NCBI RefSeq assembly: GCF_000003605.2
Contig: NW_003142823.1
Span: 4,445-34,601, forward strand
From: Saccoglossus kowalevskii
Lineage: Eukaryota > Hemichordata > Enteropneusta > Harrimaniidae
Direction of reading: 5' to 3'
DNA length: 30,157 bases
Shown here: piece by piece, positions 3,555 to 14,946 of the stretch
Position numbering within the stretch: the stretch's first letter is position 1
Layout of the letters: the number at the start of each line of letters is the position of its first letter
Program-made: the position numbers and the translations under genes
Notes under the pieces: generated by a model
Told to the model about the DNA's origin: nothing
What the model saw: the letters and a program-made list of their open reading frames with translations, nothing else
Databases searched by the model: none

Positions 3555-3646
3555 TAATCAAGAGATGACCTGTCACCCCGTGAATTGATACCCATATATG
3601 TAATCAAGAGATGACCTGTCACCCCGTGAATTACTACCCATATGAG
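3555..3646. repeat. Tandem duplication of a 46-bp unit carrying a DR1-like motif
   Basis: Two copies lie at 3555-3600 and 3601-3646. The first 32 bases are identical and the tail diverges slightly. Each copy contains TGACCTGTCACCC (3566-3578 and 3612-3624), which reads GGGTGA-C-AGGTCA on the minus strand. That is a direct repeat of nuclear-receptor half-sites with one spacer base. A further AGGTCA follows at 3653-3658. The array ends about 600 bp upstream of the start codon at 4257. Confidence 0.8.
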
Positions 3647-4256: not shown

Positions 4257-5813
4257 ATGGCAACGACATTTCTGAAGAATATCGAGCACGATCACCTGAC
4301 TTGTCAAATATGTTTCATGAGATTTCGAAATGCCAGAGTGTTACCATGTCAACATAATTTCTGCGAGCAGTGTCTCTGTAAACTAGGAACACACAAACAG
4401 CAGATAACATGCCCAGTATGTCGCACTAGTCACGATATCTGTCGAGAAATCAGCTTTCCCAAAAGTCTAGTGATCAATTCACTCACTGACGTGTTGGAAA
4501 CACATGACAGGCAAAGACTAGGTAAAAATTTATGCGATGGATGTGAGGAGAACATGGTACACGGCAGGTGTCTGGAGTGCCAGCTAAACATCTGTGAAAG
4601 CTGTACAAAGACTCATGGGAAGCTGAAGCTGACTAAAAGCCATGCAATCATGAAGATTGGTGAATATGAAGATGCGATGGGACGAGATCCAGACCTTGAG
4701 AAAGCGTACATTTACTGTGACAAACACGATGATGTTCGGCTGAAGTTGTACTGTAAGCCATGTCATCAACCAATATGCACTGAATGTGCGGTGTTCGACC
4801 ACCATCAACATCAATATGTACGCGTGGAAGACGCTAAGGTGGAAGCAATAGCTGAACTCAAAGAACATGATAATGAATTAAATAAAATAGCAAAAGAGCT
4901 TCAAGCTGGGAAAGAGAAATTACAGACAGATAGAATCGTTTTACAAGATGTTTACAACGAAGAAATCACAAAACTAAACAGACAATCTGAACGGGTTTTA
5001 GAGAAACTGCGAGAAAAACTGAAGAACATTGAAGTTAAGGTGCAGGAGACGACTAAAGCTCAGTCCAAGTATTTGAAAGCAGAGTATGACGCCAAACAGA
5101 AGAGTATCCAAACGCAGATAGATGACGTCACATTGACTGAACAGAGGGTTTTGGAAACCCAGGCCTCTCTGGTGAAGGTTGTCAAGGAAACACATGATGT
5201 TCGACTGGTACAGATGAAGAAGAGGATCGCTGCAAATGTTGTAGAGATGCAACAGCAATGCGGAAGTCACAATGTAGAACAACTAGAATTCCTACAACTA
5301 GATTGTAAAGATACACTAGAATCCGCGTTCAATGATTCAGATATTTCTATTGGTTGCTATAAAAAACAGATAGTAACAAGTATGCAAAACGGAACTTCAG
5401 ACAAGGATTCCAAACCAGATCGTACACCAACCAATACTGGTGAAAGTACTGAAACACAAATAACAACACCAAAACCTGTAGACTTCGCAACGCAAAAAAC
5501 GCTTATTTCAGATGTGCTAAAGGGCCCTTGGAAGGAAGGAATCACGTGCTACTTACTCAATGTCCAATGGTTTAAAAAATGGAAAACGTACGTGAGATAC
5601 CATTCCAAGTCAGTGCGTAATAATGCCAAAGAAGCGTATTTTCCGGGTCCTATTGACAATTCAAGTCTTTTTGAGAACGGTAAGGAAATCGTTCTCAAAA
5701 GTATTTGTCCCGGCATTCATTATGTTCTTATACCGGAAGTTGGGTGGGATTTGTTTGTAAGCTGGTATGGTCTTGTTGATGGACAAAATCCTATTATCAA
5801 TTTGTTTGAGTGA
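4257..5813 (+). CDS. RING/B-box/coiled-coil protein with C-terminal DUSP domain (TRIM-like E3 ligase), gene 1
   Basis: A single uninterrupted exon of 518 residues. The RING is a complete C3HC4 (Cys16, Cys19, Cys31, His33, Cys36, Cys39, Cys52, Cys55). B-box 1 covers about 93-129 (Cys93, Cys96, Cys105, Cys108, Cys113, Cys116, His120, His129). B-box 2 covers about 154-185 (Cys154, His157, Cys166, Cys169, Cys174, Cys177, His182, His185). A coiled coil rich in Glu, Lys and Leu spans roughly 190-335, then a polar Thr/Ser/Pro linker to about 415. Residues 416-518 match a DUSP domain: QWFKKWKTYV, FPGPIDNSSLF, YVLIPEVGWDLFVSWY and VDGQNPI line up with USP4/USP15 DUSP. The family role is RING-dependent ubiquitin transfer with coiled-coil dimerisation; DUSP would be a protein-interaction module. 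Substrate is unknown. ATG 4257 is chosen because the frame extends only a few codons further upstream without another ATG. The fusion is visible in sequence; function is inferred. Confidence 0.93.
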   Translation: MATTFLKNIEHDHLTCQICFMRFRNARVLPCQHNFCEQCLCKLGTHKQQITCPVCRTSHDICREISFPKSLVINSLTDVLETHDRQRLGKNLCDGCEENMVHGRCLECQLNICESCTKTHGKLKLTKSHAIMKIGEYEDAMGRDPDLEKAYIYCDKHDDVRLKLYCKPCHQPICTECAVFDHHQHQYVRVEDAKVEAIAELKEHDNELNKIAKELQAGKEKLQTDRIVLQDVYNEEITKLNRQSERVLEKLREKLKNIEVKVQETTKAQSKYLKAEYDAKQKSIQTQIDDVTLTEQRVLETQASLVKVVKETHDVRLVQMKKRIAANVVEMQQQCGSHNVEQLEFLQLDCKDTLESAFNDSDISIGCYKKQIVTSMQNGTSDKDSKPDRTPTNTGESTETQITTPKPVDFATQKTLISDVLKGPWKEGITCYLLNVQWFKKWKTYVRYHSKSVRNNAKEAYFPGPIDNSSLFENGKEIVLKSICPGIHYVLIPEVGWDLFVSWYGLVDGQNPIINLFE

Positions 5814-6960: not shown

Positions 6961-7696
<736 letters not shown>

Positions 7697-9330: not shown

Positions 9331-10881
9331 ATGGCGGCCAAACTTCTTGACGAAATCGACGAGCATTACTTGACGTGCCAGATATGTCTAGAAAGGTTCA
9401 TAAACGCCAGGGTGTTGCCGTGTCAGCATAGTTTCTGTGAGGACTGTTTAACCAGGTTAGTAACTCGGACAGGGGTGAAGATTCACTGCCCCTCGTGTAG
9501 ATCAGAATTTGATCTACAAGATGGCGTCAAGTGTTTACCCAGGAACCTTCAACTCAACGCACTCACGGACCTCCTTCAACAACGTGATATTGCTGATAGA
9601 TCCACTGGTCAGTTCCTCTGTGAAGGTTGCGAGAACAGACCTTCTATCAACCACTGTATCCAGTGTGCTATCAAAATATGCGATAACTGTGCAAAAACAC
9701 ATCAACGGGTTCGATTGACCAGTGGTCATACGTTGATTGATCTCGGGCCACCTTGTAGCAAACACAACGAACATCCACTAGATCGCTACTGTACGAAATG
9801 TTCTAAGCAAATATGCAATATGTGTGTTGAGATTGAACACCAGAAACACGAGTGTCTCCCGATACAAGACGCCTGGCACAAAAAAGTTGCAGACACAAGT
9901 GACACTTACAAGTCATTGCATAAAAAGCAACAAGAGGTGCAGACTGTCACCAATAACATACACTCAGCATTGGTCACCCTGAAAGATCTGTATGACGCCG
10001 AAAACACAAGACTGGAGTCACACTCTAAGAGAGTAATTAACCGACTACGAGAAACAATGAAACAGATTGAGCAAAATATACACGAAGACACAGTGACGAA
10101 AAGCAGGTATTTGCAAACAGAGTACGAGTCCAGACAGGGGTACTTCCACGGAATTCTTTCTGCCAAGACATCGTTGAAGGAAAAAATCGACGTGGCCATG
10201 TCATCACTGAAGACGGTCACGGAAAATGGGGGTGGGCGTGAAGTTTTTAAAATGGATAAGTTAGATACAGAGAAACTCTTATCCGTCGAAGATAATTTAA
10301 TTGAAGTTGTGAAATTCCCCAAACTTTTTTATACCGATGATATGAATAAAATGCTAATGAGTGACAATTTCAAACATATGTCAATAGGAAATTACAGAAC
10401 ACGTGCAGTTAAAGTCGGCTACCGTCCACAGCAGAGGAAAGTATCGAAGATTGTCGAAACGCATATACATGTCGAGGAAGTGCAAGAAGTGGAGACATCT
10501 CAAGTTGCATCTTTAAAATTACAAAATGTCATCATCAGAGATATTTTAAAAACTCCGCTGAGGAAAGGTGATAGGCGGTATATGCTGTCAACCCATTGGT
10601 TCAAACTATGGAATCAGTATGTTGCGCATGGTCAGGACGATGACCAATCACAGCTCGCACAGCATCCTGGGCCTGTTGACAACGCAACATTATTCGTCAA
10701 CCCAGGGGAGAACGTTTTGAAATCAAATTTAGCTGATAAAATTGATTACATTCTTATTCCGTATGAAGCATGGGACAAGTTGGTCCTCTGGTACAACGCA
10801 GTTGATGGCCAAGTTCCTCTCGCCAGAACTGTCAGCCACGTGGGAGTGACAGGAACTAGACTCTGTGCCGAAGACATGTAA
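9331..10881 (+). CDS. RING/B-box/coiled-coil protein with C-terminal DUSP domain (TRIM-like E3 ligase), gene 2
   Basis: A single-exon frame of 516 residues. The RING is complete (Cys16, Cys19, Cys31, His33, Cys36, Cys39, Cys53, Cys56). B-box 1 ligands are Cys97, Cys100, Cys109, Cys112, Cys117, Cys120, His124, His133. B-box 2 ligands are Cys142, His145, Cys154, Cys157, Cys162, Cys165, His170, His173. A coiled coil runs about 185-300. A short motif, MSIGNY, precedes the linker and recurs as ISIGCY in gene 1. The DUSP domain covers about 400-505, with HWFKLWNQYV, HPGPVDNATLF, YILIPYEAWDKLVLWY and VDGQVPLAR. A further 15 or so residues follow, absent from gene 1. It lies 3.5 kb downstream of gene 1 in the same orientation, so tandem duplication is likely, but the divergence shows it is old. 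Predicted role: ubiquitin ligase with a DUSP interaction module. A possible AATAAA is at 11510-11515. Confidence 0.93.
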   Translation: MAAKLLDEIDEHYLTCQICLERFINARVLPCQHSFCEDCLTRLVTRTGVKIHCPSCRSEFDLQDGVKCLPRNLQLNALTDLLQQRDIADRSTGQFLCEGCENRPSINHCIQCAIKICDNCAKTHQRVRLTSGHTLIDLGPPCSKHNEHPLDRYCTKCSKQICNMCVEIEHQKHECLPIQDAWHKKVADTSDTYKSLHKKQQEVQTVTNNIHSALVTLKDLYDAENTRLESHSKRVINRLRETMKQIEQNIHEDTVTKSRYLQTEYESRQGYFHGILSAKTSLKEKIDVAMSSLKTVTENGGGREVFKMDKLDTEKLLSVEDNLIEVVKFPKLFYTDDMNKMLMSDNFKHMSIGNYRTRAVKVGYRPQQRKVSKIVETHIHVEEVQEVETSQVASLKLQNVIIRDILKTPLRKGDRRYMLSTHWFKLWNQYVAHGQDDDQSQLAQHPGPVDNATLFVNPGENVLKSNLADKIDYILIPYEAWDKLVLWYNAVDGQVPLARTVSHVGVTGTRLCAEDM

Positions 10882-13235: not shown

Positions 13236-14561
13236 TTACTGAAGTACACATGATTCCTTGGGCGGCGGATTGGACAGCGACAAAATGCTACGTGGATGAA
13301 ACCGTCCCAGACTGTACTGTTTAGTTTTGACTTGCTGCATAGTATGTTGTACAGTTCCGTCTGACATAAATCCTGAATACCTCAGTGTCTTTCCTGGAAG
13401 AAGCAAATCTTTAGTTAAAGTGAAAGTGGGCGAGGACTCAGTCCGTTGTGATGTTTCTCTCACGCTGTGGCCAACAATCGGGTTGTTGTTAGTGGCTTCA
13501 CTTTCTCTTTCTGATCTAAACTTTGTCTCACATGCGACGACTTTGTCAATGGTGGTAAATGATTCTTCGACAGAAACGTGTCTGTAATTTTTCACTTTCT
13601 CGCTCAACTCTCTTGCCATCGACAGATTCTGTATGATGCCTTCCTCCGCCAATTCTATCTGCGTCAGCTCTCGATGCATGACGTCACACGTCTCCTGGTG
13701 CTCGGCATCCAGGTATTTCGCCTTCGCCTCCGCATCTTTCTCCAAGTGATGAATTATTTCATTCATCGTCTCACGGATCAGCGTCTTCTTCTTCTCCAGA
13801 TCCAGGGCTATCTGGTTCTTCTGAGAGTCGTACACAGAAGCTACCTTCTTGGTCAGGACTTCTACATTAGATTTCTTATCGCTGATATCGTGCAATCGAT
13901 CCAACAATGTGCTTTCAGTTGACCGAATTTTAGTTGATAAATAATCAGTAGTTTTCTGTAACGGGAAGCATTGATGCGGAGGGTGTCCATGGCGCATAAC
14001 AACGCATTTAACACAGACGGCGATCCCACAAGTGTTGCAATGGAAACTTGACGGGGCGCCGATGTGATGTTTGCACGTTTCGAGCGCTACTGTTCCATTG
14101 CCAATGATCGCCAACATATACTCATCTAAAGTCATCTGCATATGAGTTTCCGTCAGTTTGACTTTTCTGTGAGTATTAGAGCAAGGGTGACAAAGGAACG
14201 ATGAACATTCTACACACCGATTTCCCGCAATTGTTTCTTCACACGCATCACAAGAAAGGGTGTCTTCGTTCGTAACGTTTCCGTGCTCTCTGTTTTCTAA
14301 CAGTTCTGCCAATCCGTTCATCTGATAATTCTTGGGAAGACTGGCAATCCCGGAAGACGACGGTAACAGGTGCAATTTCCGGCATGTTGGGCACTTCAAC
14401 GTCCTATCGCCGCCACTGACTTGAACCAGGCAGTTGAAACAAAAGTGATGCTGGCACGGCAGAACCCTGGCGTCTTTAAATCGCTCCATGCATATTGGAC
14501 AAGTTAGGTGTTCATCGCTAATTTGCTGTAGAAGTAACGAGTCCGACATCTTGGCTGCCAT
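13236..14561 (-). CDS. RING/B-box/coiled-coil protein ending in a CaaX box (TRIM-like E3 ligase), gene 3
   Basis: A single-exon minus-strand frame of 441 residues starting at an ATG with context attatcATGg. The RING is complete (Cys21, Cys24, Cys36, His38, Cys41, Cys44, Cys57, Cys60). B-box 1 ligands are Cys104, Cys107, Cys116, Cys119, Cys124, Cys127, His131, His140. B-box 2 ligands are Cys163, His166, Cys175, Cys178, Cys183, Cys186, His191 and His196 or His193. A coiled coil runs about 200-330. The C-terminal 90 or so residues are polar, show no DUSP, B30.2, NHL or filamin pattern, and end PPPKESCVLQ. CVLQ fits a CaaX prenylation motif, with Gln as the last residue favouring farnesyl transferase. 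This predicts a membrane-tethered ligase, which is an inference. The segment LTKDLLLPGKTLRYSGF sits where DUSP begins in genes 1 and 2 and could be a vestige, but that is weak. It is convergent with gene 2. Confidence 0.92.
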   Translation of the reverse strand: MAAKMSDSLLLQQISDEHLTCPICMERFKDARVLPCQHHFCFNCLVQVSGGDRTLKCPTCRKLHLLPSSSGIASLPKNYQMNGLAELLENREHGNVTNEDTLSCDACEETIAGNRCVECSSFLCHPCSNTHRKVKLTETHMQMTLDEYMLAIIGNGTVALETCKHHIGAPSSFHCNTCGIAVCVKCVVMRHGHPPHQCFPLQKTTDYLSTKIRSTESTLLDRLHDISDKKSNVEVLTKKVASVYDSQKNQIALDLEKKKTLIRETMNEIIHHLEKDAEAKAKYLDAEHQETCDVMHRELTQIELAEEGIIQNLSMARELSEKVKNYRHVSVEESFTTIDKVVACETKFRSERESEATNNNPIVGHSVRETSQRTESSPTFTLTKDLLLPGKTLRYSGFMSDGTVQHTMQQVKTKQYSLGRFHPRSILSLSNPPPKESCVLQ

Positions 14562-14800
14562 GATAATCAGTGGAATTTCTGACGACCTCAGGCTGCTGTG
14601 GAAACATCAACTTCCGGGTCCACCGGTTCAGATTTGTGTGTATAATGCCCTCAACGGTAAATATAGGTAGTTCGGTTGTCTGTAATTAGGGTAGGAATTA
14701 GGGTAACGTGACACAGACAAAAAGTTGTACTATTTTGTCAAGATAAAATTAAAGCAAACAGCTATTCTCATGAATTTCCTGGTATAGTTCCAGTTAATTA
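14562..14800 (-). promoter_or_regulatory. Likely promoter region of gene 3 with ETS motif
   Basis: On the minus strand CCGGAAGT (plus ACTTCCGG, 14610-14617) lies about 50 bases before the start codon. This is a perfect ETS-family core, common at broad metazoan promoters. The stretch is GC-richer than its surroundings. Two TTAGGG hexamers (14686-14691 and 14698-14703) are present but too few to be telomeric. Confidence 0.45.
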
Positions 14801-14803
14801 TAT

Positions 14804-14864
14804 TATTAGTATTAGTATTAGTATTAGTATTAGTATTAGTATTAGTATTAGTATTAGTATTAGT
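14804..14864. repeat. (TTAGTA)n hexanucleotide microsatellite, about 10 units
   Basis: A near-perfect array of TTAGTA about 240 bp upstream of gene 3. It resembles but differs from the TTAGGG telomere unit. A TCACGTGA E-box follows directly at 14867-14874. Confidence 0.95.
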
Positions 14865-14946
14865 AATCACGTGAATATAATTAAACCAACAGGCAACTTA
14901 AAGTGACTTCAAATTAATTTAGAAATTGCCAAATCGTAATTAATTC

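Follow-up and report, generated by a model that had tools for sequence, protein, structure and literature searches.

Does the open reading frame at 4257–5813 (+) encode a TRIM-type ubiquitin ligase that ends in a DUSP domain, and, if so, where did this domain come from and what may it do there? DUSPs were stated to be exclusive to ubiquitin-specific proteases (USPs) (PMC4243247), a review of 2021 continued to describe their own function as unknown (PMC8125482), and an inventory of Giardia proteins lists the DUSP model of Pfam, PF06337, as a deubiquitinase model. The window, that is, the whole stretch of DNA analyzed here, comprises 30,157 nt of Saccoglossus kowalevskii (assembly GCF_000003605.2, NW_003142823.1, positions 4,445–34,601 of the forward strand). 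It occupies positions 4445–34601 of a contig of 160,192 bases (C3376), parts of which read N, in an assembly of 572 Mb and 4830 contigs. We refer to the two TRIM-DUSP genes in the window as T1 and T2, to a TRIM in the window that has no DUSP as T3 and to a DUSP-bearing relative outside the window as T4.

T1 (4257–5813, +) is a single uninterrupted frame of 518 codons, opened by its first in-frame ATG. Its domains follow one another in the order C3HC4 RING (residues 16–55, then an Arg; 4302–4421, +), B-box 1 (residues 92–130; 4530–4646, +; zinc pattern, with PF22586 below its cut-off), B-box 2 (residues 152–189; 4710–4823, +), coiled-coil region (residues 190–330; 4824–5246, +), a poorly conserved linker (residues 331–405; 5247–5471, +) and a C-terminal DUSP including its N-terminal lead-in (residues 408–515; 5478–5801, +). 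In a Pfam search with the whole protein, DUSP (PF06337) was found at residues 430–514 with an E-value of 5.8e-17 (62.3 bits, cut-off 29.3), zf-B_box (PF00643) at 4.2e-10 in two stretches, and several RING models matched, the best of them at 1.9e-07. Among PDB chains, phmmer matched residues 407–515 to USP4 and USP15 (E-values from 1.4e-21 to 1.3e-20) and the DUSP to USP11 (1.7e-12 and 4.7e-11), while the N-terminal half matched chains of TRIM2, TRIM3, TRIM28 and TRIM56. From the sequence matches to solved DUSP chains, the C-terminus would be expected to adopt the tripod-like alpha/beta fold of a DUSP. The initial annotation, made from the letters alone, had described a complete RING, two B-boxes, a coiled coil and a C-terminal DUSP akin to that of USP4, USP11 and USP15. 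The RING, B-box and DUSP profiles, the zinc patterns and the matches to all three proteases agree with it; the coiled coil, on the other hand, is seen by alignment and composition only. This region is charged or polar and free of Pro in both T1 and T2 (in T1, 51% of it is K, E, R, D, Q or N, with one Gly), and it aligns with that of other TRIMs. Its best fraction of hydrophobic a/d positions is 0.45 in T1, 0.35 in T2 and 0.49 in T4.

Downstream of the coiled-coil region, DUSP is the only domain that Pfam lists, with E-values considered up to 1 for T1 and T2 and up to 0.1 for T4. By the same searches, none of the described TRIM C-terminal domains (B30.2, NHL, FN3, MATH, filamin and others) occurs in T1, T2 or T4. 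The USP domain is absent by Pfam as well, and the stop codon comes after the DUSP.

T1 is not alone, and the initial annotation, right about its architecture, had overlooked T2 and T3 in the window and T4 beyond it. T2 (9331–10881, +) is again a single open frame, of 516 residues, with the domain order of T1: a C3HC4 RING (residues 16–56; 9376–9498, +), two B-boxes (zf-B_box at 1e-08 in two stretches; B-box 2 at residues 141–178; 9751–9864, +) and a DUSP (residues 402–506; 10534–10848, +), of which Pfam matches residues 413–501 at 2.7e-17. All eight C3HC4 RING ligands and the following Arg are intact in both genes, each of which has two B-box zinc patterns, and the full-length identity between the two proteins is 32%. 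T4 is found at a distance of about 104 kb on this contig. Its frame of 623 codons (C3376:113863–115731, −) encodes two B-box patterns, a region resembling a coiled coil, a linker some 200 residues long and a DUSP at 5.2e-18 (match at C3376:113905–114171, −). The T2 and T4 DUSPs also score above the Pfam gathering threshold (63.4 and 65.7 bits). No RING was found in the T4 frame or in the readable part of the surrounding 10-kb stretch, so at least this member of the family may not be a ligase. T3 (13236–14561, −; 441 residues) has a RING, B-boxes and a coiled-coil region and no DUSP. Around these TRIM genes, we observed a 46-base tandem repeat in two copies as well as simple repeats rich in AT (3555–3646, 7333–7458 and 14794–14877). 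About 2.6 kb from T1, a frame at 964–1614 (−) matches Exo_endo_phos at 1.2e-17 and is a piece of a LINE-type retrotransposon.

Genome-wide counts are lower bounds given the N stretches and the capped number of candidates scored. A DUSP search of the whole genome, in which 13 candidates were scored, returned at least eight matches: T1, T2, T4 and five exon pieces of three genes, on contigs C3976 (two pieces), C761 (two) and C11 (one), which we label USP-type by their DUSP and neighboring exons. The C3976 gene also has a UBL-type exon that resembles, by eye, that of USP4 chain 3jyu. When full-length T1 was searched against the genome, the DUSP part was reached by four of the 73 matches listed (T1, T2, T4 and a single USP exon); the remaining 69 cover the TRIM part only, including T4's own B-box/coiled-coil part. 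Within the window, a sensitive profile search of all frames of at least 20 codons revealed no further DUSP. Several of the genomic TRIM matches listed end, by eye, in NHL-like repeats, and one of the long TRIM frames listed, with 23,108 codons, probably reflects a stretch of N.

Two trivial explanations could be set aside. A chance frame or an assembly join was rejected because the TRIM-DUSP order is repeated in two further genes that have diverged in sequence. A normal USP gene spliced over a TRIM was rejected as well: the frame ends once the DUSP is complete, and two UBL-exon queries found no UBL remnant in the window or in stretches L011 (that of T4), L024 and L027, of which L011 and L024 are partly N (best E-value 0.70). 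As to wider distribution, a single pattern scan of viral contigs, which are not an animal collection, gave two pattern matches and none that was confirmed.

Among the sequences compared, the closest relative of the TRIM-borne DUSPs is found in the same genome. Over the DUSP region, T1, T2 and T4 are 41.8%, 43.0% and 45.1% identical to the USP15-type gene on C3976, and each of them is nearer to this gene than to USP4 chain 3jyu, USP15 chain 3lmn or the gene on C761. Identity among the TRIM-borne DUSPs is 41.5% for T1/T2 and 33.3% and 33.6% for the pairs with T4; that is, they are no closer to one another than to the USP15-type protein of their own genome. The C3976 DUSP region itself is 73.9% identical to 3lmn and 67.8% identical to 3jyu. 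The other USP15-type gene, on C761, shows 45.8% identity to C3976 over the DUSP and has PGPIDN changed to PGCIDN; being less similar to the TRIM-DUSPs than C3976, it was rejected as the source. The same applies to the C11 gene, presumably USP32-like from its appearance, which a TRIM-DUSP profile matches more weakly (4.2e-05 at best, against 5.4e-16 for C3976). A seven-row DUSP tree resolves none of its four inner branches.

Both USP15-type genes have two introns inside the DUSP, at common positions and phases: intron 1 splits the Trp codon of GDTW/GESW (after TG, phase 2), and intron 2 splits the Glu codon that follows LFK/ILR (G before the intron and AA after it, phase 1). T1, T2 and T4 are continuous across both positions; in T1, the aligned codons C431 (5547–5549, +) and N474 (5676–5678, +) are uninterrupted. 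The match between the TRIM-DUSPs and the C3976 protein starts at TQK, about ten residues past the presumed start Met of the latter. The similarity of T4 does not end with the DUSP but takes in the first of the following strands ("VKVY" against "VEVY") and so enters the USP15 DUSP-UBL junction. With both USP introns missing in all three TRIM-DUSPs and the match starting near the USP15 start, the comparison points to capture of the DUSP from a USP15-type transcript, and a spliced mRNA would be the simplest source.

Alternatively, TRIM and DUSP could have been joined at the DNA level, by exon shuffling or local recombination followed by the loss of both introns, or the DUSP could have spread between TRIM neighbors. 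T1, T2 and T4 do share one 160-kb contig, and the body of T4 matches another TRIM better (8.6e-21) than it matches T1 (1.3e-13) or T2 (8.6e-05), as would suit such a history. However, it would have to account for two introns common to both USP15-type genes and missing in all three TRIM-DUSPs, in a genome where 57 of the 73 TRIM matches listed sit in single frames of at least 300 codons and where LINE-type endonuclease relatives gave at least 151 matches, many with stops (150 of 270 candidates scored). Since the introns are gone in all three genes and single-frame TRIMs are many, an RNA step is simpler, and we consider joining at the DNA level unlikely.

The DUSP may have been acquired once or more than once. 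On the B-box/coiled-coil part, T1 and T2 group together with support of 94/89, below the level that the tool marks with a star. T4 stands apart from them in the free tree, and a single clade of the three passes the AU test (p-AU 0.234). The pattern may stem from one ancient capture that was followed by fast divergence, or from a second transfer of the DUSP.

TRIM ligases dimerize through the coiled coil and recruit an E2 by the RING. It is reasonable to hypothesize that the coiled coil of the TRIM-DUSPs would likewise make a dimer and their RING recruit a charged E2. The DUSPs would then bind either a protein that USP4/15-type DUSPs bind, most simply a target in common with USP15, or a target that is new, and whatever the DUSP holds would be ubiquitinated by the ligase: a ubiquitin writer would be using the address label of an eraser. 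TRIM C-terminal domains often set interaction specificity (PMC3137616). RIG-I and Rheb are listed as binding to USP4 through its DUSP, NBS1 recruits the enzyme by binding to the same domain, and the USP4 DUSP-UBL binds BRAP, a RING ligase (PMC7935551). Given these known partners and the role of TRIM C-termini in specificity, we take the TRIM-borne DUSP to recruit a target or partner; overall, TRIM-type RING ligases that carry, as their recruiting C-terminal module, a DUSP obtained from a spliced USP15-type mRNA are the likely interpretation of these genes. Ligases and DUSP enzymes are also known to meet as separate proteins: the interactors listed for the USP4/15 group include TRIM25 and TRIM21 (PMC4624187, the columns of which we read as USP4, USP15 and USP11), and USP15 deubiquitinates TRIM25 (PMC5372499). 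In the pairs BRAP with USP4/USP15, TRIM25 with USP15 and TRIM21 with USP4 (PMC7935551, PMC4624187, PMC5372499), the RING ligase and the DUSP enzyme are two proteins, whereas in a TRIM-DUSP they share one chain. The suggestion of the initial annotation that such a protein could compete for, or bridge to, USP partners is a fair hypothesis and a possible role. Against a recruiting role speaks that several partners of USP4/15, e.g., SART3, depend on the UBL or on the DUSP-UBL hairpin (PMC7935551, PMC5372499), and both are absent in the TRIM-DUSPs.

The surface of the domain offers a further view on this role. The USP15 DUSP has two hydrophobic clusters that may serve substrate recognition, and its PGPI motif packs on W37 (PMC5372499). 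Hydrophobic positions of cluster A are still hydrophobic in 6/7 cases in T1, 6/7 in T2 and 7/7 in T4, and those of cluster B in 6/6, 4/6 and 6/6, respectively. Strict identity to 3lmn is 4/8, 4/8 and 5/8 in cluster A and 2/6, 4/6 and 4/6 in cluster B, with 32/91, 35/96 and 32/97 outside the clusters. The Trp equivalent to W37 is present in all three genes, and the motif reads PGPI in T1, PGPV in T2 and PGKI in T4, which is a comparison of residues and not of packing.

A different set of positions matters to the protease. Clerici et al. reported that USP4 activity is lowered by mutation of ten exposed residues of the DUSP: M24, R40, F51, residues 88–92 and E134/Y136, the last two at the DUSP-UBL interface (PMC4243247). 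E134/Y136 lie beyond the region compared here, so that our comparison covers the other eight positions. T1 has none of these eight identical to USP4, T2 and T4 two each, while the USP-type proteins of the same genome keep six (C3976) and four (C761). The USP4 loop IDELD (88–92) aligns with CPGIH in T1, which has a one-residue gap beside the loop, ADKID in T2 and VEGKD in T4; at the cavity, M24/F51 correspond to L/Y in T1 and to M/Y in T4. The two sets overlap, since USP15 I84 and F47 correspond to USP4 I88 and F51. The fold core and most of the cleft positions are kept, the loop behind USP4 turnover is not. This contrast fits a DUSP released from its task in a protease and employed in binding instead, as judged from few positions, the hydrophobic ones of which may be kept for fold stability alone. 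As the clefts are mostly kept, the turnover residues mostly lost and the UBL absent, partner binding is favored over mimicry of the catalytic role.

A more specific version of target recruitment is a rivalry between writer and eraser. The targeting domain of USP15 would have been retro-captured onto TRIMs and kept in at least three genes, shedding its catalytic-switch role and largely keeping its clefts, and ligase and USP15 would be competitors for the same clients, unless the ligase marks USP15 itself. We put this forward tentatively, as a possibility that is rather less probable than not. If true, it would be the first described use of a DUSP outside deubiquitinases, as far as we found, and it carries a testable idea: by copying the address label of a deubiquitinase, a ligase can evolve to oppose that enzyme.

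The TRIM-borne DUSP might instead act on the enzyme directly, either by pairing with the DUSP of USP15 or by occupying the insert/switching-loop site of the USP; USP15 would thereby be ubiquitinated or inhibited by the ligase. Such contacts have precedents in USP4, the DUSP-UBL of which binds the USP4 insert, with the DUSP needed for turnover (PMC4243247), and crystallizes as a dimer through the DUSPs (PMC7935551); the L/Y and M/Y residues at the cavity of T1 and T4 would also suit them. However, the poor retention of the USP4 activity positions in T1, T2 and T4, relative to C3976 and C761, the replaced IDELD loop and the missing UBL all run counter to a role as regulator of USP15. With the turnover loop and the UBL gone, this explanation is weaker than recruitment of a target, and we regard it as doubtful.

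Sequence conservation indicates that the domain has been maintained. Between T1 and T2, identity is 50.0% in the RING, 33.7% in the B-boxes, 25.7% in the coiled coil, 24.6% in the linker and 41.5% in the DUSP, which makes the DUSP the best-kept part after the RING. dN ranges from 0.44 to 0.93; of the five domains, three are saturated for dS and the other two have values of 1.46 and 2.42. At ten core positions picked by eye, T1, T2 and T4 have the same residue (USP4 numbering: W41, F42, W45, V49, P97, W101, W107, Y108, Q114 and P116). A passive relic, i.e., a captured DUSP that stays in frame and does little while the TRIM works through its RING, B-boxes and coiled coil alone, would agree with a piece that came without the UBL and protease parts and with the change of PGPIDN to PGKINN in T4, but it is very unlikely because the DUSP is conserved, as seen in its identity relative to coiled coil and linker, in dN well below dS and in the shared core positions.

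In primates, the TRIM5-cyclophilin A fusion (TRIMCyp) is a RING–B-box–coiled-coil ligase whose C-terminal domain was replaced by an intronless, mRNA-captured domain of an unrelated protein. The C-terminal domain of the TRIM-DUSPs is likewise intronless and apparently captured from mRNA. Unlike TRIMCyp, they use the DUSP of a deubiquitinase rather than a cyclophilin, have it in a single frame with the rest of the protein and exist as copies that are far diverged. Zebrafish ftr52 is another TRIM with a new C-terminal domain (RanBD/cyclophilin) in the place of the usual one; there, the new domain spans several exons, whereas in the TRIM-DUSPs the frame is continuous and the domain is a DUSP (PMC3137616). 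The RING, two B-boxes and coiled-coil region are those of TRIM-NHL, TRIM-B30.2 and other TRIM classes, and the DUSP ending sets the genes apart from these as well as from the FN3, MATH and filamin classes. With USP4, USP15 and USP11 they have in common the DUSP sequence (E-values down to 1.4e-21), the lead-in and the PGPIDN motif; in contrast to these enzymes, they have no UBL and no protease, the DUSP is C-terminal on a TRIM and the activation-loop residues are mostly lost.

The initial annotation knew of no standard TRIM class with this ending, which agrees with two TRIM surveys (PMC3503706, PMC3137616) whose main text, like that of an Aplysia immunome paper (PMC9334734), does not contain the word DUSP. 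The portions available of papers naming both "tripartite motif" and "DUSP domain" describe no TRIM-DUSP. More generally, we found no report of a TRIM-DUSP in the open-access literature, among the matches listed, and unpublished database entries with such an architecture may well exist. TRIMs by their N-terminal half, the genes end in a C-terminal class not found in the open-access literature searched and were probably made by a route of the TRIM-cyclophilin type. They are a likely case of mRNA capture giving TRIM ligases a new ending in animals other than primates. A TRIM with a DUSP as its recognition end also amounts to a natural experiment, in which a DUSP freed from its protease allows its binding role to be studied alone.

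In a search for a mollusc haemocyanin family, neither this family nor the control gave a match. Finally, we made a minor observation on the mitochondrial contig of the same assembly (C4830, 17,037 bases), where COI lies on the strand opposite several other long frames. All eight ATA codons of COI fall at positions where table 4 gives Ile, which we take to be the usual Ile positions of this protein.
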